Translations under genes and position numbers: made by a program
Source: a virus
IMG/VR virus record: IMGVR_UViG_3300002180_000029
Span: 5,828 to 27,726 of that record
Strand: one strand, 5' to 3'
DNA: 21,899 nucleotides
In this document: piece by piece, positions 1,725-20,311 of the stretch
How the letters are laid out: each line of letters begins with the position of its first letter
How positions within the stretch are numbered: the first letter of the stretch is position 1
Notes under the pieces: generated by a model
What the model was told of the DNA's origin: nothing
Seen by the model: the letters and a program-made list of their open reading frames with translations, nothing else
Databases searched by the model: none

Positions 1725-1752
1725 AAGGAGACTGCCACTGGTGGCAATCATG
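1725..1752 (+). promoter_or_regulatory. Ribosome-binding site split from the start by a palindromic hairpin
   Basis: The sequence AAGGAG (1725-1730) is followed by the palindrome (1730-1749) and then directly by ATG at 1750. A GTG at 1741 lies inside the right arm, ten bases after GGAG, in the same frame as the ATG. Either GTG is used with a normal spacing, or the hairpin folds in the mRNA and brings the ATG close to the ribosome-binding site. A leader hairpin bringing a distant site near the start is known from T4 genes. Its use here is inference. Confidence 0.45.
1730..1749 (+). repeat. Dispersed 20-bp palindrome, copy 1 (TG orientation)
   Basis: GACTGCCACTGGTGGCAATC. The arms are 9 bp around a central TG, with one mismatch between positions 3 and 18 (C opposite A). 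It lies ten bases after the portal stop and overlaps the start region of the next gene. Confidence 0.9.
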
Positions 1753-2001
1753 ATTAATAACTTGCTTAATAAAAAAATACACAGAGCGTACCAAGATGTT
1801 TTCGACGCTGGTGCGCCACAAGTAAAATTAGTACTCAGCGATCTATGCAAAGCACATGGGGTATTCGACGGAGGCTTTGATCCTAACCCACATATTAATG
1901 CTTTCAACAGCGGTGAGAGAAATGTAATACTAAGGATATTGACCATATTAAAAATGAAACCAGCTGATATTATAAATTTAGCAGATAATGGAGGAGTATA
2001 A
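1741..2001 (+). CDS. Small Bbp19-like phage protein
   Basis: The product is 86 residues from the GTG at 1741, or 83 from the ATG at 1750. The pattern A-Y-x-D-V-F near the start, then V-L-S-D-L-C-K-A-H-G-V-F, a P-x-x-H-x-N-A-F-N-S-G-E-R-N-V stretch and a closing hydrophobic helix resembles the Bbp19 family named after Bordetella phage BPP-1. These small proteins commonly sit between portal and scaffold genes, and their exact role is unknown to me. The stop TAA overlaps the scaffold ATG by one base (TAATG), so translation is probably coupled. The start is uncertain because it lies within the palindrome. Confidence 0.7.
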   Translation: MAIMINNLLNKKIHRAYQDVFDAGAPQVKLVLSDLCKAHGVFDGGFDPNPHINAFNSGERNVILRILTILKMKPADIINLADNGGV

Positions 2002-2879
2002 TGCAACCAACAACCACACCAACAGCAGAGACACAAGCACCACCAGCACCACCAGCACCACCAGCAGAGCCACCAGCACCAGCACAACCAGCACAACCAG
2101 CACCACATGAGACTTGGAGAGACAGTTTGCCTGAGGACATGAGGGGATTACCAACTCTTGAGAAGTTCAAAGATGAAACCGAAATGGTGCGGATGCCGGT
2201 CAATGTAGCTCGTAGCTACATTAACGCCGAGCAGCTAATTGGTAGGGACAAGTTGCCTATACCGAAAACACAAGAAGAGTGGGACAGTACTTACGAGCGA
2301 CTTGGGAAACCAAAGAGTAAGGAATTGTACGTCTTCCCTGTAAAAGAAGGCACAGACCAAAGATTAGTAGATGAGTTGACTAAGGACGCTGAGTGGTTTA
2401 GAGACAAAGCATTTGAACTCGGCCTGAGTGAGAAGCAAGCAACTGAATTATTCTCATCTTTCACAGACAATACAGTGGCTAACATTGAAAATATGCAGTC
2501 AACTGGAGCTGCCGAAAAGCTCAATGCAGAAGTTAAACTACGTTCAGAATTTGGTGCCGCTTATGATGGCAAGATGGTTCTGGCTGGCAGAGCTGCAAGG
2601 GAACTTGGAGGGCCAGAGCTTATTGAACTGCTTGACAAGACAGGAGTTGGGAACCACCCTGCTTTTATAAAGTACAATATGAAGGTAGGGGCTATGATGG
2701 CAGAAGACTTAGGTCTTGACAAGAATACAGGCGAGCTATTACAGTCGACGGAGTCAGTCAAGGATAAAATTTTGGGCATCCAAACTTCACCTGAGTACAC
2801 AGATGCTACCAACCCCGCGCATGCAAACGCGGTGGCTAAGGTAGCAAAATTGATGGAACACCTATATGGTGGAAAATAA
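2001..2879 (+). CDS. Capsid scaffold / assembly protein
   Basis: The product has 292 residues. Position between portal and capsid, acidic and helical character, and length fit the internal scaffold on which the procapsid is built and which leaves before or during DNA packaging. Residues about 8-37 are a low-complexity stretch of Ala, Pro and Gln. Residues about 40-90 carry a W-R-D-S-L-P-E-D patch and a Y-I-N-A-E-Q-L-I-G-R-D-K-L-P-I-P-K segment, which is typical of phage scaffolds of this type. The C-terminal half is charged and predicted helical, and the last residues (about 275-292) form an amphipathic helix likely to contact the capsid protein. GGAGG lies upstream at 1991-1995. The ATG overlaps the preceding stop. 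Confidence 0.8.
   Translation: MQPTTTPTAETQAPPAPPAPPAEPPAPAQPAQPAPHETWRDSLPEDMRGLPTLEKFKDETEMVRMPVNVARSYINAEQLIGRDKLPIPKTQEEWDSTYERLGKPKSKELYVFPVKEGTDQRLVDELTKDAEWFRDKAFELGLSEKQATELFSSFTDNTVANIENMQSTGAAEKLNAEVKLRSEFGAAYDGKMVLAGRAARELGGPELIELLDKTGVGNHPAFIKYNMKVGAMMAEDLGLDKNTGELLQSTESVKDKILGIQTSPEYTDATNPAHANAVAKVAKLMEHLYGGK
2038..2106 (+). repeat. Short tandem repeat coding Ala/Pro/Gln in the scaffold gene
   Basis: Imperfect 9-base units of the type CACCACCAG recur from 2038, giving alternating A-P-P and A-Q-P codons. The tract is likely prone to slippage in steps that keep the frame. It encodes an extended, flexible N-terminal arm. Confidence 0.75.
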
Positions 2880-2922
2880 TCACAGCAGACAAGCATAAAG
2901 CCCTGCACACAATAGCATTTGG

Positions 2923-2996
2923 GCCTCCTTAGCATAGGAGACAACCCGTTGGTTAATGGGAAGAATCTTATAAACAAACACAACAATGAAGGAGGC
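2923..2996 (+). promoter_or_regulatory. Structured leader before the capsid gene with possible anti-ribosome-binding-site pairing
   Basis: The 121-base gap before the capsid start holds two small hairpins: CTCCT 2925-2929 with AGGAG 2936-2940, and CCCGTT 2945-2950 with AATGGG 2955-2960 (one G-U pair). GCCTCCTT at 2923-2930 is also exactly complementary to AAGGAGGC at 2989-2996, which contains the capsid ribosome-binding site, so two exclusive folds are possible. A TTG at 2949, eight bases after ATAGGAG, opens a 16-codon frame ending at 2999, a possible leader peptide. Pairing is seen in the sequence. Regulation is inferred. Confidence 0.35.
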
Positions 2997-3000
2997 TGAA

Positions 3001-3870
3001 ATGTCAGCTGAAATAACGACCGCAATGGTCGAACAGTACAAGAGCAATGTGGCATTATTGTCGCAGCAAAAGGGATCGAGATTGCGTGGTGCTGTCCGTA
3101 CTGAAAGTATTGATGGTGAGAATGTATACTTCGAGCAGATAGGCGCTACATCTGCACAGAAGAAAACCTCAAGGCATATGGATACACCACAGATAGACAC
3201 TCCGCACCACCGCCGTAAAGTATCCGCCGACGATTATGTATGGGCGGATTTCGTAGACAAAGAGGATTTAATCCGCACTATCATTGATCCGACAAGCCCG
3301 TATGCAGTCAATGCTGTTAACGCTTTCGGCCGATCAATTGATGACGTGATAATTGCAGCGGCAAGTGGAACAGCTTACACAGGGAAAACTGGTGGTACAG
3401 CAGTAACTCTGGGTACTGGACAGCAAATTGCTGAGGGTAATGTCGGCATGACTGTAGAAAAACTTGTTGAGGCGAAAGGTATATTCTGGAGCAACGATAT
3501 AGACGAGGATATCCCGCTACATATAGTTATGTCATCTCAGCAGTATCAGGATTTGCTAAACATAACTGAGGTCACAAGCGCAGATTACAACTCAATTAAG
3601 GCTCTTGTCAAAGGCGAGATCAATGAGTTCATGGGGTTCACCTTCCACCGTACGCAGAGGCTTTCTGTTGACGCGAGTGATATTCGTACATGTTTTGCAT
3701 GGGCGCAGGATGGCATACTTCTTGGACTTGGTGCCGATATACACACAAAAATATCTGAGAGAGACGACAAGAATTATCTCACACAGGTATGGTGCGGAAT
3801 GACTATTGGCGCAACACGTATGGAAGAGAAGAAAGTTGTCGAAATATTCTGTGACGAAACCCCTGATTAA
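3001..3870 (+). CDS. Major capsid protein
   Basis: The product has 289 residues and is the presumed HK97-fold shell subunit, by position after portal and scaffold and by its family-like sequence. It begins M-S-A-E-I-T and has the loop-like segment V-Y-F-E-Q-I-G-A (about 41-48) and the D-x-P-x-x-x-T-P-H-H-R-R motif (about 61-72). It then has a D-D-Y-V-W-A-D-F-V-D-K-E-D stretch and an A-F-G-R-S-I-D-D-V-I-I-A-A helix that matches the spine of capsids from this podovirus group, and it ends in a basic-acidic tail. I chose ATG 3001 rather than the in-frame ATG 2986, because AAGGAGG (2989-2995) would otherwise be coding and because it sits at a proper distance from 3001. High expression is expected and the leader is structured. 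Confidence 0.85.
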   Translation: MSAEITTAMVEQYKSNVALLSQQKGSRLRGAVRTESIDGENVYFEQIGATSAQKKTSRHMDTPQIDTPHHRRKVSADDYVWADFVDKEDLIRTIIDPTSPYAVNAVNAFGRSIDDVIIAAASGTAYTGKTGGTAVTLGTGQQIAEGNVGMTVEKLVEAKGIFWSNDIDEDIPLHIVMSSQQYQDLLNITEVTSADYNSIKALVKGEINEFMGFTFHRTQRLSVDASDIRTCFAWAQDGILLGLGADIHTKISERDDKNYLTQVWCGMTIGATRMEEKKVVEIFCDETPD

Positions 3871-3879
3871 TAAACCTGT

Positions 3880-3899
3880 GATTGCCACCAGTGGCAATC
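3880..3899 (-). repeat. Dispersed 20-bp palindrome, copy 2 (CA orientation)
   Basis: GATTGCCACCAGTGGCAATC, with perfect 9-bp arms. It lies nine bases after the capsid stop and 25 bases before the next ATG, upstream of that gene's ribosome-binding site. This is the only start-associated copy in the reversed (CA) orientation. Confidence 0.95.
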
Positions 3900-3924
3900 A
3901 CACCACATATAAGGAGATACAAAC

Positions 3925-4410
3925 ATGGCTACTTTTTATTCAGAGCAGGTAACAAAGCTCGACTCTGTTCCTGCGGAACCAATAAATGTCGATGAACTAC
4001 ACGGCAAAGTAAGAATCGCAAGATTCGATTATACCCAAGTAGCTGAGGGAGCGGCTGATAGTGTGATTCAACTATGTAAAATTCCTGCTGGTAGAATACG
4101 TATCCTCGGCAAAGAGAGTGCTGTGTACCATAACTTGACAACCGGTACTGTCGATCTTGATATAGGATGGGCGGCGCATACTGATTTTGCTGGTGACGCA
4201 GTCGCTGCAGACGAGGATGGTCTTGACGATAATATTGATTGCGAAACAGCAGGAGTCATAAGGGTTGGTACTGTTGCAGCAGTACTGGCTGAGTGCCAGT
4301 CAAAAGTCCTTGAGTCACAGGCTGGCGTTACAATTACAGCCACAGTTAAGACTGCGGTAATTGCCGCAGACGACACTCTGAAAGGATATATCGCTTACGT
4401 GCTGGACTAA
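3925..4410 (+). CDS. Probable capsid accessory / decoration protein
   Basis: The product has 161 residues and is dominated by short alternating hydrophobic stretches that suggest a beta-sandwich. It is rich in Ala, Val, Asp and Thr and ends Y-I-A-Y-V-L-D. Proteins of this size and style commonly follow the major capsid gene in marine and environmental podoviruses and are annotated as structural, decoration or head-fibre-like. The strong ribosome-binding site AAGGAGAT lies just before ATG 3925, and the preceding palindrome separates it from the capsid gene. The virion role is inferred from context, and I recognise no catalytic motif. Confidence 0.55.
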   Translation: MATFYSEQVTKLDSVPAEPINVDELHGKVRIARFDYTQVAEGAADSVIQLCKIPAGRIRILGKESAVYHNLTTGTVDLDIGWAAHTDFAGDAVAADEDGLDDNIDCETAGVIRVGTVAAVLAECQSKVLESQAGVTITATVKTAVIAADDTLKGYIAYVLD

Positions 4411-4432
4411 TAATAACCCTCAATCCGTTGCA

Positions 4433-4488
4433 GTTAGTTCAGCACTGTCCCCATGAAAATTGTTTTGTGGGGACACTGAGGCACTAAC
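4433..4488 (+). promoter_or_regulatory. Large imperfect hairpin in the 96-base gap before tail tubular protein A
   Basis: GTTAGT (4433-4438) pairs with ACTAAC (4483-4488), and TGTCCCCA (4446-4453) with TGGGGACA (4468-4475). The two stems are separated by an internal loop, and the apical loop could add an AAAA/TTTT pairing. There is no run of T directly after it, so a classic intrinsic terminator is unlikely. It may be an mRNA processing or stability element. The rest of the gap holds only the ribosome-binding site AAAAGGAG near 4493-4500. Confidence 0.6.
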
Positions 4489-4506
4489 AAATAAAAGGAG
4501 AGTATT

Positions 4507-5064
4507 ATGTCATCAGAAGTAGAAATTTGTAACGAAGCGTTGACAGCTATTGGTGCGAATACTATACTATCACTGTCAGATAACATAAAGACCGCACGTT
4601 TATGTAGTCTAAAATACGCTAATAAAAGAGATTATTTATTACGCAGGTATATATGGAACTTTGCAACAAAAAGGGCTGTTTTATCATCTGATGTGGACAC
4701 ACCTGATTTCGAGTTCAGTAAACAATTCACATTGCCATCTGATTGTGTGCAGTTCAGAGAACTATACCCAAACAATATAGCATACAGCATAGAAGGACGT
4801 AAGATTCTATGTGAGGAGTCAGTACTATATATGAAGTACACAGCGCAGGTAACAGACACTAACGAAATGGACACCACTTTTCGTGAGGCGTTATCAGCAT
4901 TATTAGCCAGAGAGTTGGCTATACCACTTGCGGATAGTGTAAACTTGTACTCTCAGATGGACGAGCTGTACGAAGTAAAACTGGCAGAAGCAAAATTTGC
5001 TGGGTCAATCGAACAGGACACAGAAGCAATAGAAGCAACCGATTGGGAAAATTCACGAAATTAG
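4507..5064 (+). CDS. Tail tubular protein A (adaptor, T7 gp11-like)
   Basis: The product has 185 residues and belongs to the tail tubular protein A family, the ring that joins the portal to the nozzle. Seen in the sequence are the family's opening pattern I-C-N-E-A-L-T-A-I-G-A-N-T-I-L-S-L-S-D (about 6-24), then A-R-L-C-x-x-K-Y-x-x-x-R-D-Y-L-L-R-R-Y-I-W-N-F-A-T-K-R-A-V-L (about 30-60) and F-x-L-P-S-D-C-V (about 76-83). The C-terminal helix, L-L-A-R-E-L-A-I-P-L-A followed by Y-E-V-K-L-A-E-A-K, is also standard. Length is close to that of T7 gp11. The stop is immediately followed by a palindrome and the nozzle gene. Confidence 0.9.
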   Translation: MSSEVEICNEALTAIGANTILSLSDNIKTARLCSLKYANKRDYLLRRYIWNFATKRAVLSSDVDTPDFEFSKQFTLPSDCVQFRELYPNNIAYSIEGRKILCEESVLYMKYTAQVTDTNEMDTTFREALSALLARELAIPLADSVNLYSQMDELYEVKLAEAKFAGSIEQDTEAIEATDWENSRN

Positions 5065-5084
5065 GATTGCCACTGGTGGCAATC
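5065..5084 (+). repeat. Dispersed 20-bp palindrome, copy 3 (TG orientation)
   Basis: GATTGCCACTGGTGGCAATC, with perfect arms. It starts at the base directly after the stop codon of tail tubular protein A and ends ten bases before the nozzle ATG, abutting its AGGAGG ribosome-binding site. Confidence 0.95.
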
Positions 5085-5094
5085 AGGAGGAACA

Positions 5095-7770
5095 ATGAAG
5101 TTTGACGCCATACAAAGTAGTTTCACATCCGGAGAAGTAAGCCCCAAATTCAGGGGGCAAGTGGAGACAGATGCTTACGCAGCAGGTGTTGGGCGGTCGG
5201 AGAATATGATAGTACAACCGCACGGAGGACTAATATACCGTGGTGGTTTTCATTATGTTGCCGAAGTAAAAGATCCAGCTAAGAAACCTATATTAGTTGG
5301 GTTTGATTACAAGAGTTTGTACTCATACATCTTAGAATTCGGAGAAAATTATATTAGGGTGTATGTGGACACTGAGCAAGTACAGGATGGCGCGTCGGCT
5401 TACGAAATAGGATCGACATACGCTCATTCGGAGTTACAAGATTTGTGCTTTAACCAAGACGACGACACTCTGTATATCACACACCCAAACCACCATCCAG
5501 CAAAATTAGTAAGAACTGCTGATGACGACTGGACTCTTTCAGATATCTCTTTTATGTTTGATCCAGTGTGGGCGCTAAAAAACACACCAGCAGATAACGA
5601 TTGGAAATCAATTTGTTGGAGTCCTGAGCTATCTCTGTTAGTAATTGTCGCAAGTTCTGGCACAGGAAACAGAGTAATGACTTCACCTGACGGACTAACT
5701 GGTTCGCTACAAACTTCTGCTGCCGACAATGATTGGCGTTCTGTTTGTTGGAGTCCAGAATTATCCTTGTTCGCTGCTGTAGCAAATAACGGGACAAGCG
5801 ATGGTGTCATGACATCACCTGATGGGGTTAATTGGACTTCGAGAACCGCTGCTACAGTTAGCGTTTGGGAGTCAGTTTGTTGGGGCGCTACTGCTGGGCT
5901 ATTCGTAGCAGTATCTGGTTCTGGGACTGCTAATAGAGTTATGACTTCACCAGACGGGATTACGTGGACTACAAGAACATCTGCTGCTGACAACTATTGG
6001 AAGTCAGTCTGTTGGGCCGCAGAGTTGGCGCTGTTTGTAGTAGTATCTGCGAGTGGTACTGCTGACAGAGTAATGACTTCACCAGATGGAATAACATGGA
6101 CTTCAAGAACTTCTGCTGCTGACAGAGGATGGGAGTCGGTGTGCTGGAGTCCTGAGTTGACTCTATTCGTAGCAGTTGCGGGTGATGGAATAGGCGATGG
6201 TGTTATGACTTCACCTGATGGTATAACGTGGACTTCGAGAACTCCCGCGACTGATACTGTTTGGAAGTCAGTCTGTTGGAGTCCTGAGTTAGGGATATTT
6301 GTAGCCGTTTCTGGTTCGGGTAGTGGTAACAGGACTATGACTTCACCTGATGGTATAACATGGACTACAAGAACTTCACCAGCGAACAATTATTGGGAAT
6401 CAGTTTGCTGGAGTCCAGAGTTAGCACTATTTGCCGCTGTTTCGAGTACAGGTGTTGATAATAGAGCAATGACTTCAAGCATCGGAAGGGAGGCGTGGAG
6501 AGTCGGCAACTATCCAGCGCTAAATTTTTTCTTTGAACAGCGTCATATATTCGCATCAACTCCATCTACTCTTAATGGTGTGTGGGGTAGCTGGTCTGGC
6601 GAATACAATAATATGACATTAGGCACAGGTCTCGACAATCAAGGACTTGAGTTTATTATAAAAGCGGCGGTTAAATTTGTGTGGGCGTCACCTGGTCAAG
6701 AATTGATACTTGGTGGGACAAACGCAGAGTTTAAAATTGGTGCTAATGCTGCAAACGAGGCTCTTACCCCAAGCAATATTAGGCCGACAATAGTGACGAG
6801 TTATGGTAGTTCAGCTAAACACCCAGTAAGAATAGACGATAGTGTTGTATTTTTACAGAAAGGCGAAAGGGTATTCAGAAGGCTTGTAGCCAATAATAGA
6901 TCAGGTGGGTACTCTGATTCTTATTCTGCGGAGAACTTGACAATACTTAGTGACCATATAGCAAAGAACGGTGTAAACAGCATAACTTATTCTTTACTAC
7001 CAAGTTCTATTATGTGGGTAGCACGTACTGACGGAGAACTTGTAGGTCTAACTTACGAACCAGACCACAAGATTTTCGGGTGGCATCGCCACACACTTGG
7101 CGGAACAGACTCAAAAGTACACTGGGTCGCAACTGCGAATGCTGTAGGTGAGTCACGAAAAGACGAGGTATGGGCAGTTGTAGAAAAGACTATAGATGGC
7201 AGTACTGTGTGCTATATCGAGTATATGGTAGAGGGGCTGTCAGACGAAGACGATATAGAAGACTCATTTTTTGTTGATTCAGGGGTCACGGTGACAGGCA
7301 GCCAGTTTACTTCTGTGCCTGACTTAGATCATTTAGAAGGTGAAGAAGTCAGTATATTCGGCGACGGAGCGATGCAAGCTTCTAAGACTGTATCAGGCGG
7401 ACTTATAGTATTAGACACCGCTGTCGACAAAGCACAGATTGGGCAAGCATATGAGGGCGTTGTAGAGACACTACCAATAGAAGGTGGTAACGCAATCGGG
7501 ACATCACAAGGAGTAATGAAGAGAATCAATTCTGTGTCCTTACGCTTGGACAGGTCTTTAGGGTTTAGCTTTGGTGGGCTTGTTGGGCCGCTTGACGAGT
7601 ACTACTTTGGCCCGGCGATAATGGACTCACCACTTGAATTGTTTACTGGTGACACAGAACCATCACCATTCTCTGGTGATTTTGACAGATCGTCAGTGTT
7701 AAAAGTATCACACGCTACTCCAATACCTTTTAATTTATTAGCAATAATGTACGAAGCGAGGACAAAATGA
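5095..7770 (+). CDS. Tail tubular protein B (nozzle, T7 gp12-like) with inserted seven-repeat propeller-like domain
   Basis: The product has 891 residues. The N-terminus (I-Q-S-S-F-T-S-G-E-V-S-P-K-F-R-G, about 5-20) and the G-R-S-E-N-M-I-V-Q-P-H-G-G-L stretch are the hallmark of the nozzle family. The core resumes with Y-P-A-L-N-F-F-F-E-Q-R-H-I-F-A-S-T and W-G-S-W-S-G-E-Y-N-N. Residues about 163-461 are seven tandem units of about 42 residues, each with a W-x-S-(V/I)-C-W element. Units two to six carry S-P-D-G-x-x-W, which resembles Asp-box/BNR repeats. Without the insert the protein would be about 590 residues, an ordinary size for compact members of this family. The nozzle gates DNA exit, and the insert probably forms a surface domain contacting the host or fibres. 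The stop overlaps the next start (ATGA). Confidence 0.88.
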   Translation: MKFDAIQSSFTSGEVSPKFRGQVETDAYAAGVGRSENMIVQPHGGLIYRGGFHYVAEVKDPAKKPILVGFDYKSLYSYILEFGENYIRVYVDTEQVQDGASAYEIGSTYAHSELQDLCFNQDDDTLYITHPNHHPAKLVRTADDDWTLSDISFMFDPVWALKNTPADNDWKSICWSPELSLLVIVASSGTGNRVMTSPDGLTGSLQTSAADNDWRSVCWSPELSLFAAVANNGTSDGVMTSPDGVNWTSRTAATVSVWESVCWGATAGLFVAVSGSGTANRVMTSPDGITWTTRTSAADNYWKSVCWAAELALFVVVSASGTADRVMTSPDGITWTSRTSAADRGWESVCWSPELTLFVAVAGDGIGDGVMTSPDGITWTSRTPATDTVWKSVCWSPELGIFVAVSGSGSGNRTMTSPDGITWTTRTSPANNYWESVCWSPELALFAAVSSTGVDNRAMTSSIGREAWRVGNYPALNFFFEQRHIFASTPSTLNGVWGSWSGEYNNMTLGTGLDNQGLEFIIKAAVKFVWASPGQELILGGTNAEFKIGANAANEALTPSNIRPTIVTSYGSSAKHPVRIDDSVVFLQKGERVFRRLVANNRSGGYSDSYSAENLTILSDHIAKNGVNSITYSLLPSSIMWVARTDGELVGLTYEPDHKIFGWHRHTLGGTDSKVHWVATANAVGESRKDEVWAVVEKTIDGSTVCYIEYMVEGLSDEDDIEDSFFVDSGVTVTGSQFTSVPDLDHLEGEEVSIFGDGAMQASKTVSGGLIVLDTAVDKAQIGQAYEGVVETLPIEGGNAIGTSQGVMKRINSVSLRLDRSLGFSFGGLVGPLDEYYFGPAIMDSPLELFTGDTEPSPFSGDFDRSSVLKVSHATPIPFNLLAIMYEARTK
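5581..6480 (+). repeat. Seven tandem repeats of about 126 bp within the nozzle gene
   Basis: The repeats encode units of about 42 residues, each with W-x-S-V-C-W and most with M-T-S-P-D-G-I-T-W. DNA identity is high around the segment reading ATGACTTCACCTGATGG, so recombination between units could change copy number. The first and last units lack the complete S-P-D-G-x-x-W box, as edge blades often do. A cysteine is kept in every unit. Confidence 0.9.
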
Positions 7771-8228
7771 TAACTTACAAGCAGGAAGGGTATACCGATG
7801 TGCTTGGCGAAATGAAGAACCTATTCAAGTCACAATGGGAAGAGGTTGGGCTAAACGCTCTGAGCGACCGCAACAGGGTACTTGACCCTAATTGGTCGAT
7901 GTATGAGGCTCTGGACGGCGCCGGTAATTTACACGTGTACACCGCCAGGATTGCCACCAGTGGCAATCTCGTAGGCCACTGCATGTCCGTTGTGTACCCG
8001 CACCCGCACAGCAAGAATGTAATAGCTGCCGAAAATGACTTCCTGTACTTATCACCGAAGTATAGAACAGGATTCACGGGGGTTGGGCTTATAAATTTTG
8101 CTGTAGAAGAATTGAAAAAAGTAGCTGAGATAATCTTTTTTAACACGCATGTGCATAATTCATTTTTCCCTATACTACATAAGTTGGGGTTTAAACTTAT
8201 AGAGCATAGGGCTATGCTGGAGGTTTAA
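7767..8228 (+). CDS. GNAT-fold internal virion protein (T7 gp13 position)
   Basis: The product has 153 residues with a GNAT acetyltransferase-like fold. A strand-turn-strand reads V-Y-T-A-R then G-N-L-V-G-H, followed by N-D-F-L-Y-L-S-P-K-Y-R-T-G-F-T-G-V-G-L, which matches the acetyl-CoA-binding R-x-x-G-x-G region (about 99-108). The protein ends with the usual L-G-F-K-L-I-E-H-R. GNAT-like proteins at this position, between the nozzle and gp14-like genes, are common in podoviruses. Whether this one acetylates anything is unknown. Palindrome copy 4 lies in frame at residues 61-67 (R-I-A-T-S-G-N), in the turn before G-N-L-V-G. The start overlaps the nozzle stop by four bases, which indicates coupled translation. 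Confidence 0.75.
   Translation: MITYKQEGYTDVLGEMKNLFKSQWEEVGLNALSDRNRVLDPNWSMYEALDGAGNLHVYTARIATSGNLVGHCMSVVYPHPHSKNVIAAENDFLYLSPKYRTGFTGVGLINFAVEELKKVAEIIFFNTHVHNSFFPILHKLGFKLIEHRAMLEV
7949..7968 (-). repeat. Dispersed 20-bp palindrome, copy 4 (CA orientation), inside the GNAT-fold gene
   Basis: GATTGCCACCAGTGGCAATC, with perfect arms. It is read in the phase with its first G as third codon base and encodes I-A-T-S-G-N between two predicted beta strands. Confidence 0.95.
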
Positions 8229-8876: not shown

Positions 8877-8896
8877 GATTGCCACTGGTGGCAATC
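8877..8896 (+). repeat. Dispersed 20-bp palindrome, copy 5 (TG orientation)
   Basis: GATTGCCACTGGTGGCAATC, with perfect arms. It lies sixteen bases after the gp14-like stop and sixteen before the next ATG, just upstream of the GGGGAG ribosome-binding site. Confidence 0.95.
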
Positions 8897-8912: not shown

Positions 8913-10745
8913 ATGCCAAGAATACCACAATTACCGACATCAAAGGAATCCCATATAGGTGATTTTAAGATATCAACACCACGAGCAGCAAATATAAACG
9001 CACCAAGTGGACGACCAGCACGTAACGCAGGAGGCGTAGGTGGTAGAGTGATTGGTGGTGCTGTCAAAGAACTGAGCGCAGTATTGAGAAAGATGTCACA
9101 GGAGTACTCTAAGAAAGAAGAGTTAACACGTATAGCGAATTCTCAGAAGTTACAATTCGAAATGAATGAGAAATTTAGGATTCGTAAAAAAGAAGAAGCA
9201 GAGAAAGTTGGGAGCCAAGCACTTGGGTTAGTAGAGAAGTTTAAACAAGATACAGAGGATTTAAGAGAAGGTTACATACCAGAAGACTTAGACCAAAGAA
9301 CTTCTAACGAACTCAACCAGCATTTTAACTCGCAGTACAATTCACATGCTTCTTGGCTGGTAAACCACTCAATAAGACAGAGTTCTGTTGCTGACAGTGA
9401 GGCCCGGATACGTGCGATACAAGACGCACATACCAATATAACTTCTATGGGTGTTGGCGACAGAGTTGGAATAGAGCGTGAGGTAATGAACACGCTTAAA
9501 TTTGAGAAAGCTAGACACCCTGGCATAACAGAAGACCAGATGGAGACTAATGGCAGGTCGTTAAGAGAGGACTACTTAACTTTTGCGTTAACGAAGTGGG
9601 CCGCTGATAGTACTATTGGAGCATCTAATTTCTGGGAGAAGAACCAAGAGTATATAAAAAGCGCATTACCAAAAAACTATAATGTTATGGCAAAAAAGAT
9701 GGAGATAGTTGAAGACGATTCTACGTATGATATTGCGCTCGGAACTCTTGAGAGAATGTTTGGTGAAGACGATGCCGCAGCAGCTAAATTTGTAGACGAG
9801 GACACAGATGGCTTGCTAAAGTTGACCCCATCGCAACGATTAAAAATGTCGTCAACACTGTGGGCTAACAACAACCATAAGTTGGCGGAAGAAGAGCGCA
9901 TAAAAAATAAGAAAGAAGAAGAGTATCTTATCAATAGCCATAATCGTTTCTTTGATCCCGAAACACGTACTCTTAACACCCCCGCAGCTTTGTCAGATCT
10001 TGAGCAGACATACAGATCAGGCGGAGTTGATTCCGCCATGTACGAGAGCAGACGTAAACAGTTGCTGACTGGTGGCGAGTTCAGCAACAGCCAAGCGCAA
10101 GATTTAATAAGAGATATTAACAGCGTTGCGGTCACCACTAAAGGTGAAGTGCTGAATCGTATAGCAGGTACGAGCGCAAACCCCGCGCCGTTCTTCAGCG
10201 AGTTAAAGAAACGGCAAGACCAGATATCCAGAGGTTTCACTTCTAACTGGTTTGATGTAGCGTATGACAAGTTCAACGCACTTGCGAGTATAAAGAAGAA
10301 GAAAGACTTACCATCAGATGTGAAAGAAAAAGAATTACTTGTTAGCACAACAGAGCTACCAGCATTTAAAAAGCGTTTGGAAGAAGTTGCACGATGGGCT
10401 GGTTTGTCAGCTGGCGATCCAGAGATTGTTAACCTTGCTAACACCTTACTTGAGAGCGGCTGGTATTCTGACAAGCACCCATCATGGCACTCAGGCGGAG
10501 CCGCATGGAATGTATTTGGAGAGAAGTACCAGAGATTATGGGAGTTCCCTGAAGGTGAAGTTATGGAAGTATTACAGTCTCGTGGTCTTGAGACTGCCAC
10601 TGGTGGCAGTCCCACTCTTTTCCAAAAGTACACTCCAGAAGAAGAAGAAGCTGTGGCAAGACTACATACTATGAATATACCAATCGACAGCACCAGTATA
10701 AAAAGAGCGCTCGAGATTATAAAAATAGAAAAAGGTGGTGAATAA
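8913..10745 (+). CDS. Internal virion (ejection) protein, T7 gp15-like
   Basis: The product has 610 residues, mostly long charged helices, with many K-E-E and E-E-E stretches and few cysteines. It lies between the gp14-like and gp16-like genes, exactly where T7 gp15 (747 residues) sits. That protein forms the periplasmic part of the DNA ejection channel. Its N-terminus (about 1-40) is Pro/Gly/Arg-rich and looks flexible. I cannot see a specific catalytic motif. Palindrome copy 6 lies in frame at residues 560-566 (E-T-A-T-G-G-S), in a predicted loop before an E-E-E-E helix. The stop overlaps the next ATG by one base (TAATG). Confidence 0.7.
   Translation: MPRIPQLPTSKESHIGDFKISTPRAANINAPSGRPARNAGGVGGRVIGGAVKELSAVLRKMSQEYSKKEELTRIANSQKLQFEMNEKFRIRKKEEAEKVGSQALGLVEKFKQDTEDLREGYIPEDLDQRTSNELNQHFNSQYNSHASWLVNHSIRQSSVADSEARIRAIQDAHTNITSMGVGDRVGIEREVMNTLKFEKARHPGITEDQMETNGRSLREDYLTFALTKWAADSTIGASNFWEKNQEYIKSALPKNYNVMAKKMEIVEDDSTYDIALGTLERMFGEDDAAAAKFVDEDTDGLLKLTPSQRLKMSSTLWANNNHKLAEEERIKNKKEEEYLINSHNRFFDPETRTLNTPAALSDLEQTYRSGGVDSAMYESRRKQLLTGGEFSNSQAQDLIRDINSVAVTTKGEVLNRIAGTSANPAPFFSELKKRQDQISRGFTSNWFDVAYDKFNALASIKKKKDLPSDVKEKELLVSTTELPAFKKRLEEVARWAGLSAGDPEIVNLANTLLESGWYSDKHPSWHSGGAAWNVFGEKYQRLWEFPEGEVMEVLQSRGLETATGGSPTLFQKYTPEEEEAVARLHTMNIPIDSTSIKRALEIIKIEKGGE
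10592..10611 (+). repeat. Dispersed 20-bp palindrome, copy 6 (TG orientation), inside the gp15-like gene
   Basis: GACTGCCACTGGTGGCAGTC. Both arms carry the alternative base (C at 3, G at 18), so the arms still pair perfectly. It is read in the same codon phase as copies 4 and 7 and encodes T-A-T-G-G-S. Confidence 0.95.
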
Positions 10746-13700
10746 TGGCCACACAGAATTTGATATCGATGCTAAAAAAGCACGAGGGTTACAGGGCTAA
10801 TATCTACAAAGACACACGAGGGTTTGATACTGTTGGGTATGGGCATAAAGTGACCTCACCAGAAGAGTACAGCAAAGGTGTTTCAGAAGCAGAAGCCGAA
10901 GCAATGCTTGTGCAAGACGCTGACAGAGCCAGGGCAGACGCAGAGAGAGTGTTCCCGAACTTGTCGAGCTACCCCTCTGAAAAACAAGATGCTTTTGTCA
11001 ACATGACGTTTAACCTTGGCGCAAGCGGAGTTCTTGGATTCAAGAATATGCACACTGAACTACAAAAAGGCGACAAAACAGATTGGGATGTAGTCGGGCA
11101 ACATATGTACGACAGCAAATGGAGAGAACAAGTTGGCGACAGAAGCACTGAACTTATAGATATTATAAAGAAAAAAGAAGAAGCCGAAGCGGAGGTTAAA
11201 GAAGAAGCTGATTCTTTTGAAAAAATGAAGAAAGATTACGGTGTCGGTGACTCCTTCGAGAGAATGCAAGCTGAATACAAAACTCAGCAGATCATAGCGG
11301 AGGACCAAGGAATAGACGAGGACTACTTACTACCCGTAACAGCGGCTATAAGTGCATCGTCAGCTTTTTTGTTTGGGCTGCCAGCGGGGTTGGTAGCTGG
11401 TGGAGCGTCCCTGATAACAGAAGCAGGTAGCGCTATCTTGGGTAAGTTCGCAAAAAAGGTCGACCCTGCATTGGAGTTCCCTGTGTACTTTGCGTCACAG
11501 GTTGTTAGTGCTTTTTCTTTTGAGAACTGGCTGATTAATAACACTGTCAAAAAACTCGCAACTGCTGCTCCTAAATTCTGGACAAAAGAGTTCGCAGTAG
11601 CAGAAAGGAATGGGTGGCTGTCAAAAGAGTTTATCAGCGACACATCCGATATAGTCCGCAACATGGACATGGGGACAAAAGGCGCGAATAAAAAACTATT
11701 AAACCTGTACAAACAACAAGCGTACGACTACAGACTTGGAAAAGTAGGTAAGAGGTTGGAGAAATTAGAGAAAGTACCTTCAAAAGTAGCCGAAGCGAAG
11801 GACGTTATAACCCAACTCAGCAAGAAGAAAACTTTGCTTGATTCTGATTACCGTAGGTTAGCACGTATTGCTAAAGAGGATGCGTATATAGAGTATATGC
11901 CTAAGTTCAACAAGTTTAAAAACAATGCCGTAAATAAAGCAGCTAACGAGAAGTGGCAAGCATTACCAACACGAGACTTAGTGGAAGCCTTGAGAGCAGA
12001 TGGTGGTATTCCTAAGAACTACAAATTCGTTTCACCAGAGGTGGCAGAAGCTTTTGCAAAACGACATCCTGATTTGCTGAGTAAGACAGACAAAGCAGCA
12101 CAACTTGAGAGTATAGCCAGAGGCTTTGACTACGAAAGCGTTGATGATGTTGTGCTTAGTGTGTTCAACACTCCAAACAAAAAACAGTTGCGTAGGATCG
12201 CATCTGCGGAATTGAAATCAGATTTTGATAAGGTGTTTATAAATGAAATATCTTCACGTGTAGCAGCTAAAGAAGCAGACTACCTGTATGAGTTGCACGG
12301 TAAAACAAAAGGATGGAAAGCTGGCCGGATATCTAAACAAAAACATATTGAGGCAACACGTAGATCAGAGGGGAAACTACCAGCAAAACTTGTTGCGATG
12401 GAAGTTAAGGCTGGTAAGAGAGCAACGTCTAAGTTGTTGGAAATACTGCAGAAGACAACAAAAAAAGATATTACACATCTACAGAGGGCGCACGCACAAA
12501 AGTTGGCTGAGTTCCAAGCCGCTGTTAGAGTAGAGAGAAAACTAAAAGTTATAAATAGAAGGCTACAAAGAAGCATTGGTATAGACGGCGAGTATGGCGC
12601 TCAACTTGACAAGTTGTTAGCCCCATTGTACAACAAGGCAGCAGGTAGACCAGCAGAGCATATGTGGAAGTTCTTGACTCGAAAGTACTATGATGAGGTG
12701 TCAATAGGAGCCGATATACTAATCAAAAGATACAACGACTTGTTACAGACTTTACCTTTTACTGGTCGTACTTTTTTAGACCTTACTTACAACCAAGCTA
12801 AAGACCTTGACAACTTTGTCCGTGCTTTCAAATTTGTCGCCGAGAATGACAGATGGATAACCAGAATAGGTGAGAAGTATCGTTTAAAGCATCTTGTTTC
12901 CGAGATATACAACACCGCCAAGACAACTATTCCAAAGGCTAAGTTACTACAACCACGTGTTACAGGTTCACAGCTTGAGGAGTTATCAAGAGGCAGCCTT
13001 GGTAAGCTTGCTAATGCAAGAGAGTCTCTTGCTGATGTGGCTGGTGGGGCGCTTGCGTCATTAAAAAGGATTGAACCAATTTGTATACAGTTGGATGGTT
13101 TTAAAAATTTTGGCCCAGCATGGAAAAATATATTCAACAGAACAGTGCAAGCGGAGACAGCAAAAGAAGCTTTGGGTTCTAAAGTATTTGGTAAATACGA
13201 AGAAATATTTGCAGCACATAAAGCAGCTACCGGACTGAAACCTTCTAAATACTGGACTGCCACCAGTGGCAATCTTAATGGGTTAGCAATAAACAAAGAA
13301 ACTGCTGTTCTGATGGCGCTAAATTCTAAGCACCCTAATAATATGGAAGCTATGCTAAGTGGGCTGAGGGTGTCTAAAGAAGCTATGATAAATTTTCTCG
13401 ACGGAGCGATGTCAACTGCTGACAAAAAACTTGTTAACGATGTACTCGACACACTCGACGAATTGTACCCACTACTCGCTGAGATATACAAAAAGAAAAC
13501 TGGTCTTGTACTACCACGGCCAGAAGGGGGTAGGTACTTCCCAATACTTAGGGACAGCAACTTCTCCAATATAAGCGAGAGTATTGATGATGTGTTCCTC
13601 GATACTGGTTCTGATTTATTCTACACAGAGGTTAAGAAGACTTTTATGAAAGCCAGAGTAGGTGGAGTAAAAGCAGTGAAACTTGACTTTAGAGGACTGA

Positions 13701-14911: not shown

Positions 14912-14914
14912 CGA

Positions 14915-14934
14915 GATTGCCACTGGTGGCAATC
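14915..14934 (+). repeat. Dispersed 20-bp palindrome, copy 8 (TG orientation)
   Basis: GATTGCCACTGGTGGCAATC, with perfect arms. It lies three bases after the gp16-like stop and sixteen before the fibre ATG, just upstream of the fibre's AGGAG. Confidence 0.95.
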
Positions 14935-14950
14935 ACAATAGGAGCATATT

Positions 14951-16288: not shown

Positions 16289-16297
16289 GAGTACATT

Positions 16298-17230
16298 ATG
16301 GGTTTAAGATACGGTAGTGGAATAGACGGCGATGTAACGATATCAGTAGATACTGTTCTGACTGAGGATAAGAATTATTATAATTTGTCAATCGCTGTAG
16401 ACAAAACTCTTGATACCGCAGGGTATATTGTTAGGGTTAAAAATGTACTAAACAACTTAGGAACTATAACTAACAATAGTTCAAACGCAGGCGGTGATGC
16501 TACTTCTGGAGGAGCTACAACAACCTCTGAGGGTGACGGAGAAGCTGGAGTAGACGGTAGAGTTGGTGGTAGTGGCGCCGGTGTGAGCGGTGGGAGTGGG
16601 GGTGCAGGCGCTTGCCAGCATCACCAACCACCAGTTGGCGACACCCTACACACAGACGGCGGAGCGGGTGGTGATGGTGGAGCAGGTGGTAGATATGGCG
16701 GAACAGTAGATGTCTACGCAAGAACACTAACTAACACAGGTAGTATCGACGCCAATGGCGGAGATGGTGGAGATGGAGGCAATGGTGATGATGGTGAGTT
16801 TGAGGAAGGAGTGGCAAGAAATTCACCAGAACAAGAACCGTACCAAATCGATATTGCGTCTGGCGGCGGCGGCGGCGGTGGCGGCGGCTGCGGAGGCAAT
16901 GGGGGTGTAGTTACATTATACTACGACAACAGAACTGAGGGTACTGTCACAGCTGCAGCAGGTGGAGGTGGCGCTGGCGGAACTGGTGGTTCGGGCTTTA
17001 CTTGCAGTCATCTCACACCCGGAGGCACGACGTACTCAGGAGGCGTATACGGTGCTGGCGGCGGCTCAGAGGCGAACGACGGTGGTTGCGGTGGTGATGG
17101 CGTCGAAGCAACAGGTGCGTCTGGTGATGGTGATGATGGCGTGTGTGGTGAGGATGGCTCAGCAGGTAGTATTTCGTGGAACTACGAACAGGCTTCTTCT
17201 GGTGCGTTGTTCTTTGGTGCTAACTTTTAA
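16298..17230 (+). CDS. Glycine-rich fibre tip / adhesin
   Basis: The product has 310 residues. It starts with a beta segment (about 1-60) of the repeated phage-adhesin type: G-D-V-T-I-S-V-D, Y-Y-N-L-S-I-A-V-D-K-T-L, and G-Y-I-V-R-V-K-N-V-L-N-N-L-G-T-I. After that it has long glycine runs broken by D, A, T and S (about 65-300), including nine consecutive Gly. Such Gly-rich blocks form polyglycine bundles in phage adhesins such as those of the gp38 type, exposing variable loops that bind the receptor. Several cysteines stand alone within Gly blocks. Local GC content is well above that of the neighbours because of GGC/GGT codons. It starts nine bases after the fibre stop with its own AGGAG, so the two are probably one operon and one fibre assembly. 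The receptor role is inferred. Confidence 0.7.
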   Translation: MGLRYGSGIDGDVTISVDTVLTEDKNYYNLSIAVDKTLDTAGYIVRVKNVLNNLGTITNNSSNAGGDATSGGATTTSEGDGEAGVDGRVGGSGAGVSGGSGGAGACQHHQPPVGDTLHTDGGAGGDGGAGGRYGGTVDVYARTLTNTGSIDANGGDGGDGGNGDDGEFEEGVARNSPEQEPYQIDIASGGGGGGGGGCGGNGGVVTLYYDNRTEGTVTAAAGGGGAGGTGGSGFTCSHLTPGGTTYSGGVYGAGGGSEANDGGCGGDGVEATGASGDGDDGVCGEDGSAGSISWNYEQASSGALFFGANF

Positions 17231-17235
17231 CTCAA

Positions 17236-17255
17236 GATTGCCACTGGTGGCAGTC
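17236..17255 (+). repeat. Dispersed 20-bp palindrome, copy 9 (TG orientation)
   Basis: GATTGCCACTGGTGGCAGTC, with T opposite G at positions 3 and 18 (a wobble pair in RNA). It lies five bases after the adhesin stop and fourteen before the next ATG, upstream of AGGGGG. Confidence 0.95.
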
Positions 17256-17269
17256 TGAATAGGGGGATT

Positions 17270-17497: not shown

Positions 17498-17525
17498 GAA
17501 GTATTTCTGGTTTTGTTAGTTATCT

Positions 17526-17531
17526 TATAAT
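17526..17531 (+). promoter_or_regulatory. Possible -10 box before the secreted DUF4214 gene
   Basis: A perfect TATAAT stands in the 60-base gap before the 17558 gene. No good -35 is seen 16-18 bases upstream, where the sequence is only T-rich, so this is a weak promoter candidate. Confidence 0.3.
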
Positions 17532-17557
17532 CTATTAAACACAAAAGGGAATAAAAT

Positions 17558-18112
17558 ATGAAAAAGTTTCTTGTAGTACAAATTGTTGCACTGGTTGTTT
17601 TGCTTTGTTCGTCTATTAACAGTTTCGCTGAACTTAGCGTACTTAATTATATCAGGGCGACGCACTTTTATACGTGTATGTATAACAAACCGGGAGAAGC
17701 TGCTGGCTTGGAGTATTGGGCTACGGATATAGTGAACAGGGGTGAAGAAGCAGTTGCCGAATCATTTGTTAACTGTGTAGAACTCGATATAGGCGCAATG
17801 AATAATGCCCAGTTCATCACAAGAATGTATGTTATGGCCTTAAACAGGATGCCGGACGAAGAAGGGCTTGATTACTGGATTCAAAGAGCGAACTCAACAA
17901 CAAAAGGAACTTTGATGCGTGAGTTTATAGGGGGCATTATAAACTCTCGCGACAACCACCCTGACGATGATCTGTTCGCTAACAAGGTAACTGTTGGTAT
18001 CGTATACGGATGGGCGCAAGAAATACCTGATGTATGCCCAACTAACTATTATAGCTATTTGGGGGTTACAGAAGACCTTGCTACAGTGCAAGCGGCGATA
18101 GACCAATTCTAA
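17558..18112 (+). CDS. Secreted DUF4214 domain protein
   Basis: The product has 184 residues. Residues 1-24 are a Sec signal peptide: M-K-K, a long hydrophobic core, and an S-F-A cleavage site. There is no canonical lipobox around C17. The mature part resembles DUF4214, with two diverged copies of the pattern Y-x-x-x-x-(N/R)-x-P-(G/D)-E-x-x-G-L-x-Y-W. One is at about residues 40-55 and one at about 90-110 (M-Y-V-M-A-L-N-R-M-P-D-E-E-G-L-D-Y-W). DUF4214 is mostly seen in bacterial surface and calcium-binding secreted proteins, and its function is unknown. An exported phage copy could act at the cell surface, for instance in exclusion or adhesion, or modify the host as a prophage-carried gene. 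It has its own spacer with a possible promoter and is followed by a GC-rich hairpin. Confidence 0.72.
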   Translation: MKKFLVVQIVALVVLLCSSINSFAELSVLNYIRATHFYTCMYNKPGEAAGLEYWATDIVNRGEEAVAESFVNCVELDIGAMNNAQFITRMYVMALNRMPDEEGLDYWIQRANSTTKGTLMREFIGGIINSRDNHPDDDLFANKVTVGIVYGWAQEIPDVCPTNYYSYLGVTEDLATVQAAIDQF

Positions 18113-18119
18113 CATAACC

Positions 18120-18139
18120 GGTGGGCGTAAAAGCCCACC
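18120..18139 (+). terminator. GC-rich hairpin after the DUF4214 gene (terminator-like)
   Basis: GGTGGGC (18120-18126) and GCCCACC (18133-18139) form a perfect 7-bp stem around GTAAAA, eight bases after the stop codon. No U-tract follows, so it may be a weak or Rho-assisted terminator or an mRNA-end protector. Confidence 0.45.
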
Positions 18140-18159
18140 ACATCTTTGAAAGGCGAACA

Positions 18160-18363
18160 ATGCGAAAGTTATACGAAGAAGCAGAGAAGTTGGCAAGACA
18201 AGCTACTGCACTTGGGGATGATTTATTCTATCATAGCCCTGGGGCAGTTCGTGTTGATGATGTGGCTAAGACTCTGCATGATATTGGTGCCGAATACGGA
18301 AACTTGAGTATGTTGTTTAATAATCTTAGAGTAAAAATATTGAACCATAGGGAGTCGTCATGA
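18160..18363 (+). CDS. Small helical protein of unknown function
   Basis: The product has 67 residues from ATG 18160, preceded by GAAAGGCG. An earlier GTG at 18121 lies inside the hairpin and is not used in this call. The sequence is charged and helical (M-R-K-L-Y-E-E-A-E-K-L-A-R-Q-A-T-A-L-G-D-D) with no membrane segment. I do not recognise the family. Its last bases overlap the DUF1353 start (ATGA), so the two are probably translated together. Confidence 0.6.
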   Translation: MRKLYEEAEKLARQATALGDDLFYHSPGAVRVDDVAKTLHDIGAEYGNLSMLFNNLRVKILNHRESS

Positions 18364-18737
18364 CAATAGCAGCTACGATGCCAGTAACAAGAATAGTTGA
18401 CTATAAGTACTCAGTGCTAACTGAACCTTTTAGATGCTATTCTAAAGTGCTACAAAAATGGATCACTATCCCTGTTGGCTTCCACACTGATTGGGAGTCT
18501 GTTCCGCTTATAAAAGGAACTTCTAAAGTCTCTGGCCTTGTACATGATTATCTTTGCAGGATAGATAGTAATCCCGTAGTTGACAAGAAGACAGCAGCAA
18601 AAGTGTACTTGGAATTTATGAAGTACAGGGGAACTTCGTTTGTTAGACGATTAGTTAAATACTTAGCTGTATGTATAGCAGTTGGATATTTTCATAAGTT
18701 GCACACGCAAGATAAACTTAGCATACGTAAACATTAG
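18360..18737 (+). CDS. DUF1353 phage protein
   Basis: The product has 125 residues and shows the DUF1353 signature: I-P-V-G-F-H-T-D-W-E-S-V-P (about 38-50), then L-V-H-D-Y-L-C-R (about 60-67), then K-T-A-A-K-V-Y-L-E-F-M-K-Y-R-G (about 77-91). Conserved D, H and D residues suggest a small metal-dependent or hydrolase-like site, but the function of the family is unknown. It is widespread in tailed phages, often near fibre, holin or lysis genes, as here. The C-terminal part has a mildly hydrophobic helix (about 98-112). GGGAG precedes the start. Confidence 0.8.
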   Translation: MTIAATMPVTRIVDYKYSVLTEPFRCYSKVLQKWITIPVGFHTDWESVPLIKGTSKVSGLVHDYLCRIDSNPVVDKKTAAKVYLEFMKYRGTSFVRRLVKYLAVCIAVGYFHKLHTQDKLSIRKH

Positions 18738-18752
18738 AAAAGGAGTTCAATC

Positions 18753-19058
18753 ATGAGTGGACACAGAAACACAGTATTAGTCGCATGTGGTACTTGGATA
18801 AACAATATACTGAACGTAACAGTTGGCGATGCGACCTGGACGGCGATTACTCTTGGTGGTACTGATAAGTGCAGAGCTATAGAAGCGGGTCTTCGTTCAG
18901 GTGGCGTATGGAAATTATCAAATGCCGATGATGGAGCTACCTACAGAACTGTAGATAGCAATATAGCAATGGACATTATAAAAGAATCCGACAAAACACT
19001 ATTCTACGCACAAACAGATTCTGGTGCGGATACTTTAGAGTGTATACTGTTGGATTAG
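18753..19058 (+). CDS. Small beta-rich protein of unknown function
   Basis: The product has 101 residues with alternating hydrophobic strands and a pattern of the type G-L-R-S-G-G-V-W-K-L-S (about 46-56), then L-F-Y-A-Q-T-D-S-G-A-D-T-L-E-C-I-L-L-D at the end. The style resembles small structural phage proteins near fibre genes. I do not recognise a family. AAAAGGAG precedes ATG 18753. It lies between the DUF1353 and leucine-rich-repeat genes and is cotranscribed with them by spacing. Confidence 0.6.
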   Translation: MSGHRNTVLVACGTWINNILNVTVGDATWTAITLGGTDKCRAIEAGLRSGGVWKLSNADDGATYRTVDSNIAMDIIKESDKTLFYAQTDSGADTLECILLD

Positions 19059-19075
19059 TGAAAAGGGAGTTTAGG

Positions 19076-19861
19076 ATGACTCATTTACGAAAGTATCTAA
19101 ACACACATATCAGAACACCTAATATTTGGGGCGGCGGTGCACCTGAACTTGAGTTTACCAATGCAGGTGCAACTCTATCTCCTACTATACAGGTAACCGG
19201 AACTCCTGAGATCCTCTGGACTTGGAGTGACGGCACAACAGATAATGTTGCTAATCCCGGTGAGAAGACACTTACAGGGACGCATACACTGCTGGTCACA
19301 CCTTGGTCTGCTGTTACAAGAATTCTATTCAATGGAGATGGCTTAACTGGGCCATTTGAAACTAAAGAGTGGGAAAATATAGAACATCTTGTGCTCTATG
19401 AAAATGCTAATACTGGCAAGTTTGTCACCTACGCATGGGAGGATATAAAATACTTATGGATTTTTGATAATGATTTTGATGGTGAGCTTGTTACCCACCC
19501 ATGGGAAAATATGCTGGAAATGTGGATGTATGGCCTTGATGTTACAGGTAACTTCGCTTTTCACCCTTGGGTTAACTTAATTAAACTCTATCTACAAGGT
19601 AATAATCATTCTTCTGTGTCTGGTAGTTTGCAAACGCAAATAAAAATGACTGTGCTTTACTTATCTGGTAATAATGTTTCTTCACAGGTAGAAATAGACA
19701 AAGTATATTCTGACCTACTTGTTAATGCTGCTGACGCTGGTCGTGTGTCTGTGTGTACTGTCAACACATCTGGAGCTAACATGTCGGCCCCTTCCGCAGC
19801 AGGTATAGCTGATGCAGCAACACTGGTAACGACTTACGGTTGGACAGTAACTCACGCATAA
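19076..19861 (+). CDS. Leucine-rich-repeat protein, probable virion or surface binding protein
   Basis: The product has 261 residues from ATG 19076, since the in-frame ATG 19040 lies in the previous gene. Residues about 20-75 look like a PKD-type beta domain (W-T-W-S-D-G-T-T-D, T-H-T-L-L-V). Residues about 80-205 are five or six repeats of about 22 residues with an L-x-L-x-x-N/D frame and a conserved W-(E/V)-(N/D)-(I/M/L) element. The C-terminal cap (about 205-261) contains G-A-N-M-S-A-P-S and ends G-W-T-V-T-H, as in leucine-rich-repeat proteins found in other phages. It has no signal peptide, which argues for a virion or cytoplasmic protein. It may bind a receptor, but the role is inferred. 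GGGAGTTTAGG precedes the start. Confidence 0.72.
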   Translation: MTHLRKYLNTHIRTPNIWGGGAPELEFTNAGATLSPTIQVTGTPEILWTWSDGTTDNVANPGEKTLTGTHTLLVTPWSAVTRILFNGDGLTGPFETKEWENIEHLVLYENANTGKFVTYAWEDIKYLWIFDNDFDGELVTHPWENMLEMWMYGLDVTGNFAFHPWVNLIKLYLQGNNHSSVSGSLQTQIKMTVLYLSGNNVSSQVEIDKVYSDLLVNAADAGRVSVCTVNTSGANMSAPSAAGIADAATLVTTYGWTVTHA

Positions 19862-19872
19862 AGGAGGTAACA

Positions 19873-20265
19873 ATGGCTGTACCTGAAGTAATAACAGAAA
19901 TAATACAAGATAGACCAACTTCTAAGACTCTTACAAAAGAAAAGTCTTGGAGATTAGTTTACGGTAGTAATAATGAGGTCACTAATTTATTCGAAAGCGC
20001 TGGTGTGACTTATGCACCCAACTTCATGAAGTGCTTTGAGACAAATGAAGAAGCTGGTCTTTATATCGAAAGCGAATATTTAAAATGTCATAAGGCTGTG
20101 ATAAAAGACGGAGTTGTTGAGAGTTTAACAGAGATTAAAACTAACATGGCCGTAACATTAAAAATAGGTGAATACGCTTTCTACTCTGCTGATCTCGATG
20201 ATTTTAGAACACACGCACGTGAACAAAAGTGGGATATTGAGAAGGTTATAGATATACTGTACTAA
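19873..20265 (+). CDS. Unknown small protein, last gene of the + strand module
   Basis: The product has 130 residues from ATG 19873, chosen because AAAGGAGGT (19860-19868) sits just before it. The in-frame ATG at 19840 lies inside the upstream gene. It is mixed alpha/beta, has an acidic C-terminus ending V-I-D-I-L-Y, and has no membrane segment or recognised motif. It closes the late operon and is followed by the two-way terminator. Confidence 0.6.
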   Translation: MAVPEVITEIIQDRPTSKTLTKEKSWRLVYGSNNEVTNLFESAGVTYAPNFMKCFETNEEAGLYIESEYLKCHKAVIKDGVVESLTEIKTNMAVTLKIGEYAFYSADLDDFRTHAREQKWDIEKVIDILY

Positions 20266-20275
20266 ACCTAAACAC

Positions 20276-20311
20276 AAAAAGCAGACTGCCACCAGTGGCA
20301 GTCTGCTTTTT
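20276..20311. terminator. Bidirectional terminator built around palindrome copy 10
   Basis: A perfect 17-bp inverted repeat: AAAAAGCAGACTGCCAC at 20276-20292 pairs with GTGGCAGTCTGCTTTTT at 20295-20311 around CA. It gives a GC-rich stem with a T run on either strand, ideal for stopping both the + strand late genes (stop at 20265) and the - strand ligase operon (stop at 20313). Confidence 0.92.
20284..20303 (-). repeat. Dispersed 20-bp palindrome, copy 10 (CA orientation), core of the terminator
   Basis: GACTGCCACCAGTGGCAGTC, with perfect arms using the C/G variant at positions 3 and 18. It is the only copy extended by matching flanks (AAAAAGCA and TGCTTTTT). Confidence 0.95.

Follow-up and report, generated by a model that had tools for sequence, protein, structure and literature searches.

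What is a short palindrome, repeated along part of a viral genome, for, and what reads it? The window (the whole stretch of 21,899 nucleotides analysed here) covers bases 5828–27726 of a 40,108-base virus record. We posit, at a probability of roughly 0.6, that the palindrome is a putative parS/OB-like site at which a DNA clamp of the ParB family, encoded by the phage, binds or is loaded, with a role in global regulation or DNA organisation.

The palindrome and its genome

All ten copies of the 20-bp palindrome listed by the first-pass annotation are present in the window (Table 1), with zero mismatches to GAYTGCCACNNGTGGCARTC and, as it had also reported, 16 of 20 positions invariant among them. 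Shuffles of the window (n = 100) contained 0.03 copies on average and at most one, in agreement with its view that chance cannot explain ten copies and that this is a defined dispersed element. The search with up to two mismatches that it proposed for the whole phage genome yields 19 copies, 12 of them exact. Its exclusion of a T7-type promoter is supported, and a conserved promoter was likewise rejected, as the -35-like TTGCCA matches stem from the element's own sequence and the scan lies ~2 SD above shuffles. The GTG start (1741) of the Bbp19-like gene falls within copy 1; in several relatives, too, a start codon is predicted within a copy.

Table 1. Positions of the element copies (window coordinates) and of the candidate binding protein (contig coordinates)
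Feature	Coordinates	Strand	Centre	Setting
Copy 1	1730..1749		TG	Between portal gene (61-1719) and Bbp19-like gene
Copy 2	3880..3899		CA	9 nt past stop of major capsid gene
Copy 3	5065..5084		TG	Directly after tail protein stop; next ATG 10 nt on
Copy 4	7949..7968		CA	Inside ORF 7767-8228; encodes RIATSGNL; absent from homologs
Copy 5	8877..8896		TG	Intergenic
Copy 6	10592..10611		TG	Inside ORF 8913-10745
Copy 7	13255..13274		CA	Inside 1388-aa internal virion/lysozyme protein
Copy 8	14915..14934		TG	Intergenic
Copy 9	17236..17255		TG	Intergenic
Copy 10	20284..20303		CA	Intergenic, where late genes (+) and ligase/primase genes (-) converge
Copy 10 with extended arms	20276..20311			AAAAAGCAGACTGCCACCAGTGGCAGTCTGCTTTTT; likely bidirectional terminator containing the element
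ParB-like protein	L055:9999-11099	minus		367 aa; outside the window; conserved in the phage clade

PHROG matches in the window are podovirus-like and include portal/head-tail adaptor, major capsid, tail tubular and internal virion lysozyme proteins, followed after the late genes by ligase and primase matches on the opposite strand. Among named phages, the capsid is closest to those of HTVC010P-type pelagiphages (~52–56% identity). Both record ends (L054:1-672 and L055:12209-12508) share one DELDELDEL-repeat reading frame, which suggests a complete genome, either circularly permuted or terminally redundant, whose record was opened within that gene. No integrase, repressor or phage RNA polymerase was found among the G000 genes scanned. 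Two repetitive genes were observed besides: the tail tubular protein (window 5635-6480) contains MTSPDGITWTSRT-like tandem repeats of 132 bp (44 aa), with ~19 copies in the relative L074, and a glycine-rich repetitive ORF without a family match (16298-17230) adjoins the tail fiber gene.

Distribution across viruses and prokaryotes

In IMG/VR viral contigs the pattern is matched exactly in 49 stretches, usually with several copies per contig, and allowing up to three mismatches gives 233 copies in 416 kb, compared to none below five mismatches in a reversed-sequence control. The search of related phages called for by the first-pass annotation thus finds the element recurring in a podovirus-like clade, in 150 distinct contexts; the copies with distinct flanks form the non-redundant set of 150 used below. 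Capsid relatives of at least 73% identity carry the element and those of at most 58% do not. A GTDB-based collection (257 Gb, 85,000 prokaryote genomes) returned 13 stretches, which is near chance. The split by capsid identity combined with this near absence from prokaryotes identifies the element as clade-specific and phage-borne.

The same counts bear on whether the palindrome belongs to the host. A host nucleoid, segregation or regulatory factor exploited by the phage could read a dispersed palindromic site, but several of the 13 prokaryote stretches either have a CG centre and lie in high-GC genomes or belong to a phage contig that was mis-binned, and no genome in the collection, from which the host itself may be missing, has a dense set; we consider such a factor unlikely. 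The mis-binned contig (L142, three copies) is from the element-bearing phage group and was binned with a Candidatus Thorarchaeota assembly through contamination or low-coverage mis-binning. A host-borne repeat was rejected on these counts; the three Desulfobacteraceae matches have essentially no phage genes around them and no further close copies. Repeats of the uptake-sequence or HIP1 type, to which the element had initially been likened, were also rejected: the host-type density implied by that likeness is absent at 13 stretches in 257 Gb, again from a collection that may lack the host. The first-pass annotation recognised no named repeat in the element, and we likewise found no named repeat family that matches it; among the literature matches listed for the half-site, none contains the full word in a phage context.

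Footprint and asymmetric centre

Across the 150 non-redundant copies the footprint extends to ~26 bp, YNRGAYTGCCACYRGTGGCARTCYNR, which revises the earlier description of conservation ending sharply at the 20-bp edges. C never occurs at -1 nor G at +1, and the base is mostly a pyrimidine at -3 and a purine at +3. These preferences hold equally in the 70 intragenic copies, and stop codons are therefore not their cause.

The centre is CA in 70 and TG in 66 of the 150 copies. Together these make up 136 of the 147 YR-centred copies, where half would be expected if the two bases were independent (P ~1e-28, an optimistic value given that the phages are related). The central dinucleotide had been interpreted as an orientation mark, a role that does not fit two directions of about equal frequency which, at the site behind the portal gene, vary among relatives. 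The central TG/CA is instead a selected asymmetry, in which the asymmetry is kept and the direction is not. A simple dimer site alone does not explain this required feature. It is possible that an asymmetric centre leaves no perfect palindrome around it, palindromes being frequent targets of restriction, that it avoids cruciforms, or that the centre is contacted by one protein subunit only.

Placement, origin and spacing of copies

Gaps between genes hold 80 of the 150 copies though ~94% of the DNA is coding, and the remaining 70 (47%) are intragenic. Most intragenic copies (48/70) are read in one frame, giving an x(I/T)AT(S/G)G(N/S)P-like peptide of small and polar residues. Homologous proteins without a copy mostly align across the site ungapped, as exemplified by the DNA polymerase (QTATGGTVKTP with the copy, SEATCGSVETP without) and by copy 7, an ungapped substitution relative to one homolog lacking it. 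These alignments indicate that substitution, with selection acting on the DNA word, gives rise to the copies, and that the element is not mobile. The alternative of a miniature mobile or recombining element, either REP/MITE-like or a set of serine-recombinase core sites, has in its favour the 12 bp + 2 bp + 12 bp layout, which with its asymmetric dinucleotide recalls hix/gix sites. The homologs, however, mostly lack a 20–24 bp insertion, and no recombinase or transposase was found in the genes searched, making this reading most improbable. REP/MITE repeats were rejected on the comparison of insertion with empty sites, where replacement is mostly ungapped, and serine-recombinase crossover sites on the lack of a recombinase family in the genes scanned. 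The first-pass annotation had asked whether copies appear and disappear cleanly among syntenic phages; what is seen is mostly ungapped replacement of homologous codons. Among the analogies first offered, mobile elements are therefore not supported, as the intragenic copies are mostly substitutions and not insertions, and neither are uptake sequences, as the element is sparse in prokaryotes; mycobacteriophage stoperators stand as a fair functional analogy.

Genomes carry ~16–21 copies, about one every 1–2.5 kb (mean gaps 1.1–2.4 kb). Gaps between copies are more regular than expected at random in G000 (CV 0.48, P 0.0008), G001 (CV 0.57, P 0.006), G002 (P 0.04) and L146 (P 0.04), and not significantly so in L011; crowding into gene boundaries could contribute to this evenness.

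A DNA site with a second role for some copies

Selection for an RNA hairpin would favour U-G wobbles over C-A mismatches on the transcribed strand, yet at pair 3/18 the number of C-A mismatches (32) does not fall below that of U-G wobbles (20). The element therefore acts as DNA, and an RNA role is not general. We nonetheless considered intrinsic terminators, or processing or stability hairpins between genes, as its function. Copy 10, lying between convergent operons, is clearly terminator-like in both directions and a likely bidirectional terminator; 4–8 extra paired bases flank 15 of the 150 copies, where ~2 are expected, and 13 of the 15 are intergenic; and at four of the five sites just downstream of parB the arms are longer, with sequences that differ from one another. 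Set against this, flank complementarity is at chance on average over the 150 copies, most lack a U tract, nearly half are intragenic and Rfam gave no match. As a general function the RNA hairpin is disfavoured, and we regard it as quite improbable; it is valid for the subset, including copy 10 and the parB-downstream sites, that doubles as terminators or hairpins. An intrinsic terminator family was rejected on the same grounds, C-A not being avoided and U tracts or extended arms occurring in some copies only.

A ParB-family protein as the candidate reader

The same genome encodes a ParB-like protein (Table 1). Pfam ParB_N and HTH_ParB match it in the right order, weakly and below curated cut-offs, and it also matches the ParB-like family phrog_4715. 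Its HTH block is invariant (GVGAS..FLG.TWSRQTI.DALQV), and its putative motif for nucleotide binding is a variant that reads GHHR in place of GERR. The top PDB matches of an AlphaFold model (pLDDT 79) are ParB, Noc and KorB (8qa9, TMt 0.60). Two features of a ParB/KorB-type system are thus found, namely a ParB-family protein with an N-terminal ParB fold followed by an HTH, and candidate palindromic sites co-occurring with it. No ParA family member was found among the larger G000 ORFs scanned and the ParA-binding motif LG(R/K)GL is absent from the ParB sequences, on which grounds a ParABS partition system was rejected.

The element is present in all five viral contigs found with the ParB-like protein, and no ParB match was found in 14 capsid relatives without the element, six of them near complete. 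What the element tracks is a module of primase-helicase, SNF2 helicase, PolA, SSB, DUF2800 exonuclease and ParB, of which the six near-complete element-free relatives gave nothing but a single weak helicase match. Co-occurrence does not single out ParB, as it travels with the whole replication module. Copies lie on both sides of parB in four of five lineages, which are not independent, against 3 of ~142 other genes (Fisher P 8e-6), a base rate that start-codon errors in automatic gene calls may have lowered; G000 has no recognisable copy upstream of parB. The podovirus VpV262, with a lone ParB-like gene, has no such array, which makes the array a property of the element-bearing clade and not of phage ParBs generally. 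Searches of named phages for distant ParB relatives gave weak partial matches only, and a DNA polymerase search found no relative.

Another DNA-binding protein of the module, for example the DUF2800 exonuclease (L055:8215-9918), could instead use the palindromes as stoperator-like operators or as recombination or replication landmarks. The element tracks the whole module, the exonuclease has a conserved C-terminal segment that is weakly HTH-like, and its distant homolog in L183, a contig without the array, aligns over residues 4–401 only, stopping before this HTH-like domain. A monomer-type HTH on a nuclease, however, fits a 26-bp dyad less well, copies bracket parB (the shared parB/exonuclease gap suits either protein), and family precedent makes the evidence for ParB stronger. 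We view a different protein of the module as a doubtful candidate.

A separate palindrome was observed in G005 (L158/L159), a capsid relative without the element and with no ParB. It reads GGACAAAC(NN)GTTTGTCC and is dispersed in seven exact copies, for example at G005:6777, 13575, 14301, 16275, 18571, 27115 and 34145, most of them bordered on one side by a common GGGTGGCAT, and with GTTATTAGTTATCAG-type arrays besides. It is largely private to that contig, with single matches in other IMG/VR contigs.

Returning to the ParB-family clamp, we infer the course from binding at the sites through loading and sliding of the clamp to regulation as follows. The HTH would bind the two half-sites as a dimer, and the N-terminal ParB fold would then close as an NTP-dependent, probably CTP-dependent, clamp and slide off the site. 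Some 16–21 sites at 1–2.5 kb intervals would let ParB reach the whole phage genome, and those flanking parB may give feedback on parB itself. The KorB clamp on plasmid RK2 slides up to 1.5 kb, silencing promoters (PMC11790492); compared with mean gaps of 1.1–2.4 kb, a similar reach would bring nearly every promoter within range. The outcome may be KorB-like global transcriptional control, genome organisation or both, and among silencing, activation, compaction and protection we favour none. More tentatively, these podoviruses, which appear to be lytic (no integrase found), might use a ParB-type sliding clamp that works alone, with no ParA. Loaded from sites spread evenly over the whole genome, some of them within coding sequence, the clamp might coat or silence the phage genome on entry or protect it from the machinery of the host, as a viral clamp-based chromatin or global switch.

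Comparison with known systems

Stoperators of the mycobacteriophage L5 type are asymmetric and bound by the lytic repressor. They resemble the array as numerous protein-binding sites scattered through short gaps between phage genes. The phage element differs in being a dyad that often lies inside genes, and neither a repressor nor an integrase was found. Identity with mycobacteriophage stoperators was rejected, as the element is symmetric, both centre orientations are used and no repressor was found among the G000 genes scanned. The parABS of RedRock-type extrachromosomal prophages also combines a phage-encoded ParB with several sites, but there the parS loci consist of direct repeats of 8 bp that lie in clusters and serve, together with ParA, to partition the prophage (PMC7157519), unlike the array described here. 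Chromosomal ParB-parS shares with our system a palindrome with inner CAC...GTG, a ParB-family protein and a similar predicted fold. The phage sites, in contrast, are spread genome-wide while parS is clustered near the origin, they have two extra asymmetric central bases, and neither a ParA gene nor LG(R/K)GL was found.

Phage ParB-fold proteins are widespread, and a 2025 survey, in which most of those described are fused to other domains, leaves open what they do (PMC12704722). A lone phage ParB with an HTH, together with a large and strongly conserved candidate target array, makes function directly testable, in a natural system of 16–21 candidate clamp loading sites on a 40-kb genome where the phage bends its coding sequences to hold a DNA site at regular intervals. 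Genome-wide control of this kind would be new for such viruses. The closest likeness is to KorB, the ParB-family CTPase clamp and global regulator of RK2, and its operators (OB), with which the phage shares a ParB-family fold followed by an HTH, short palindromes dispersed in several copies as operators or candidate operators, and the structure match 8qa9. The phage site differs in sequence and is present in ~16–21 copies, nearly half of them intragenic; RK2 couples KorB to its partner KorA and to promoters, while the phage array is known from sequence and its binding is predicted. A ParB clamp with genome-wide loading sites is the simplest account of the array, most like KorB and its operators on RK2.
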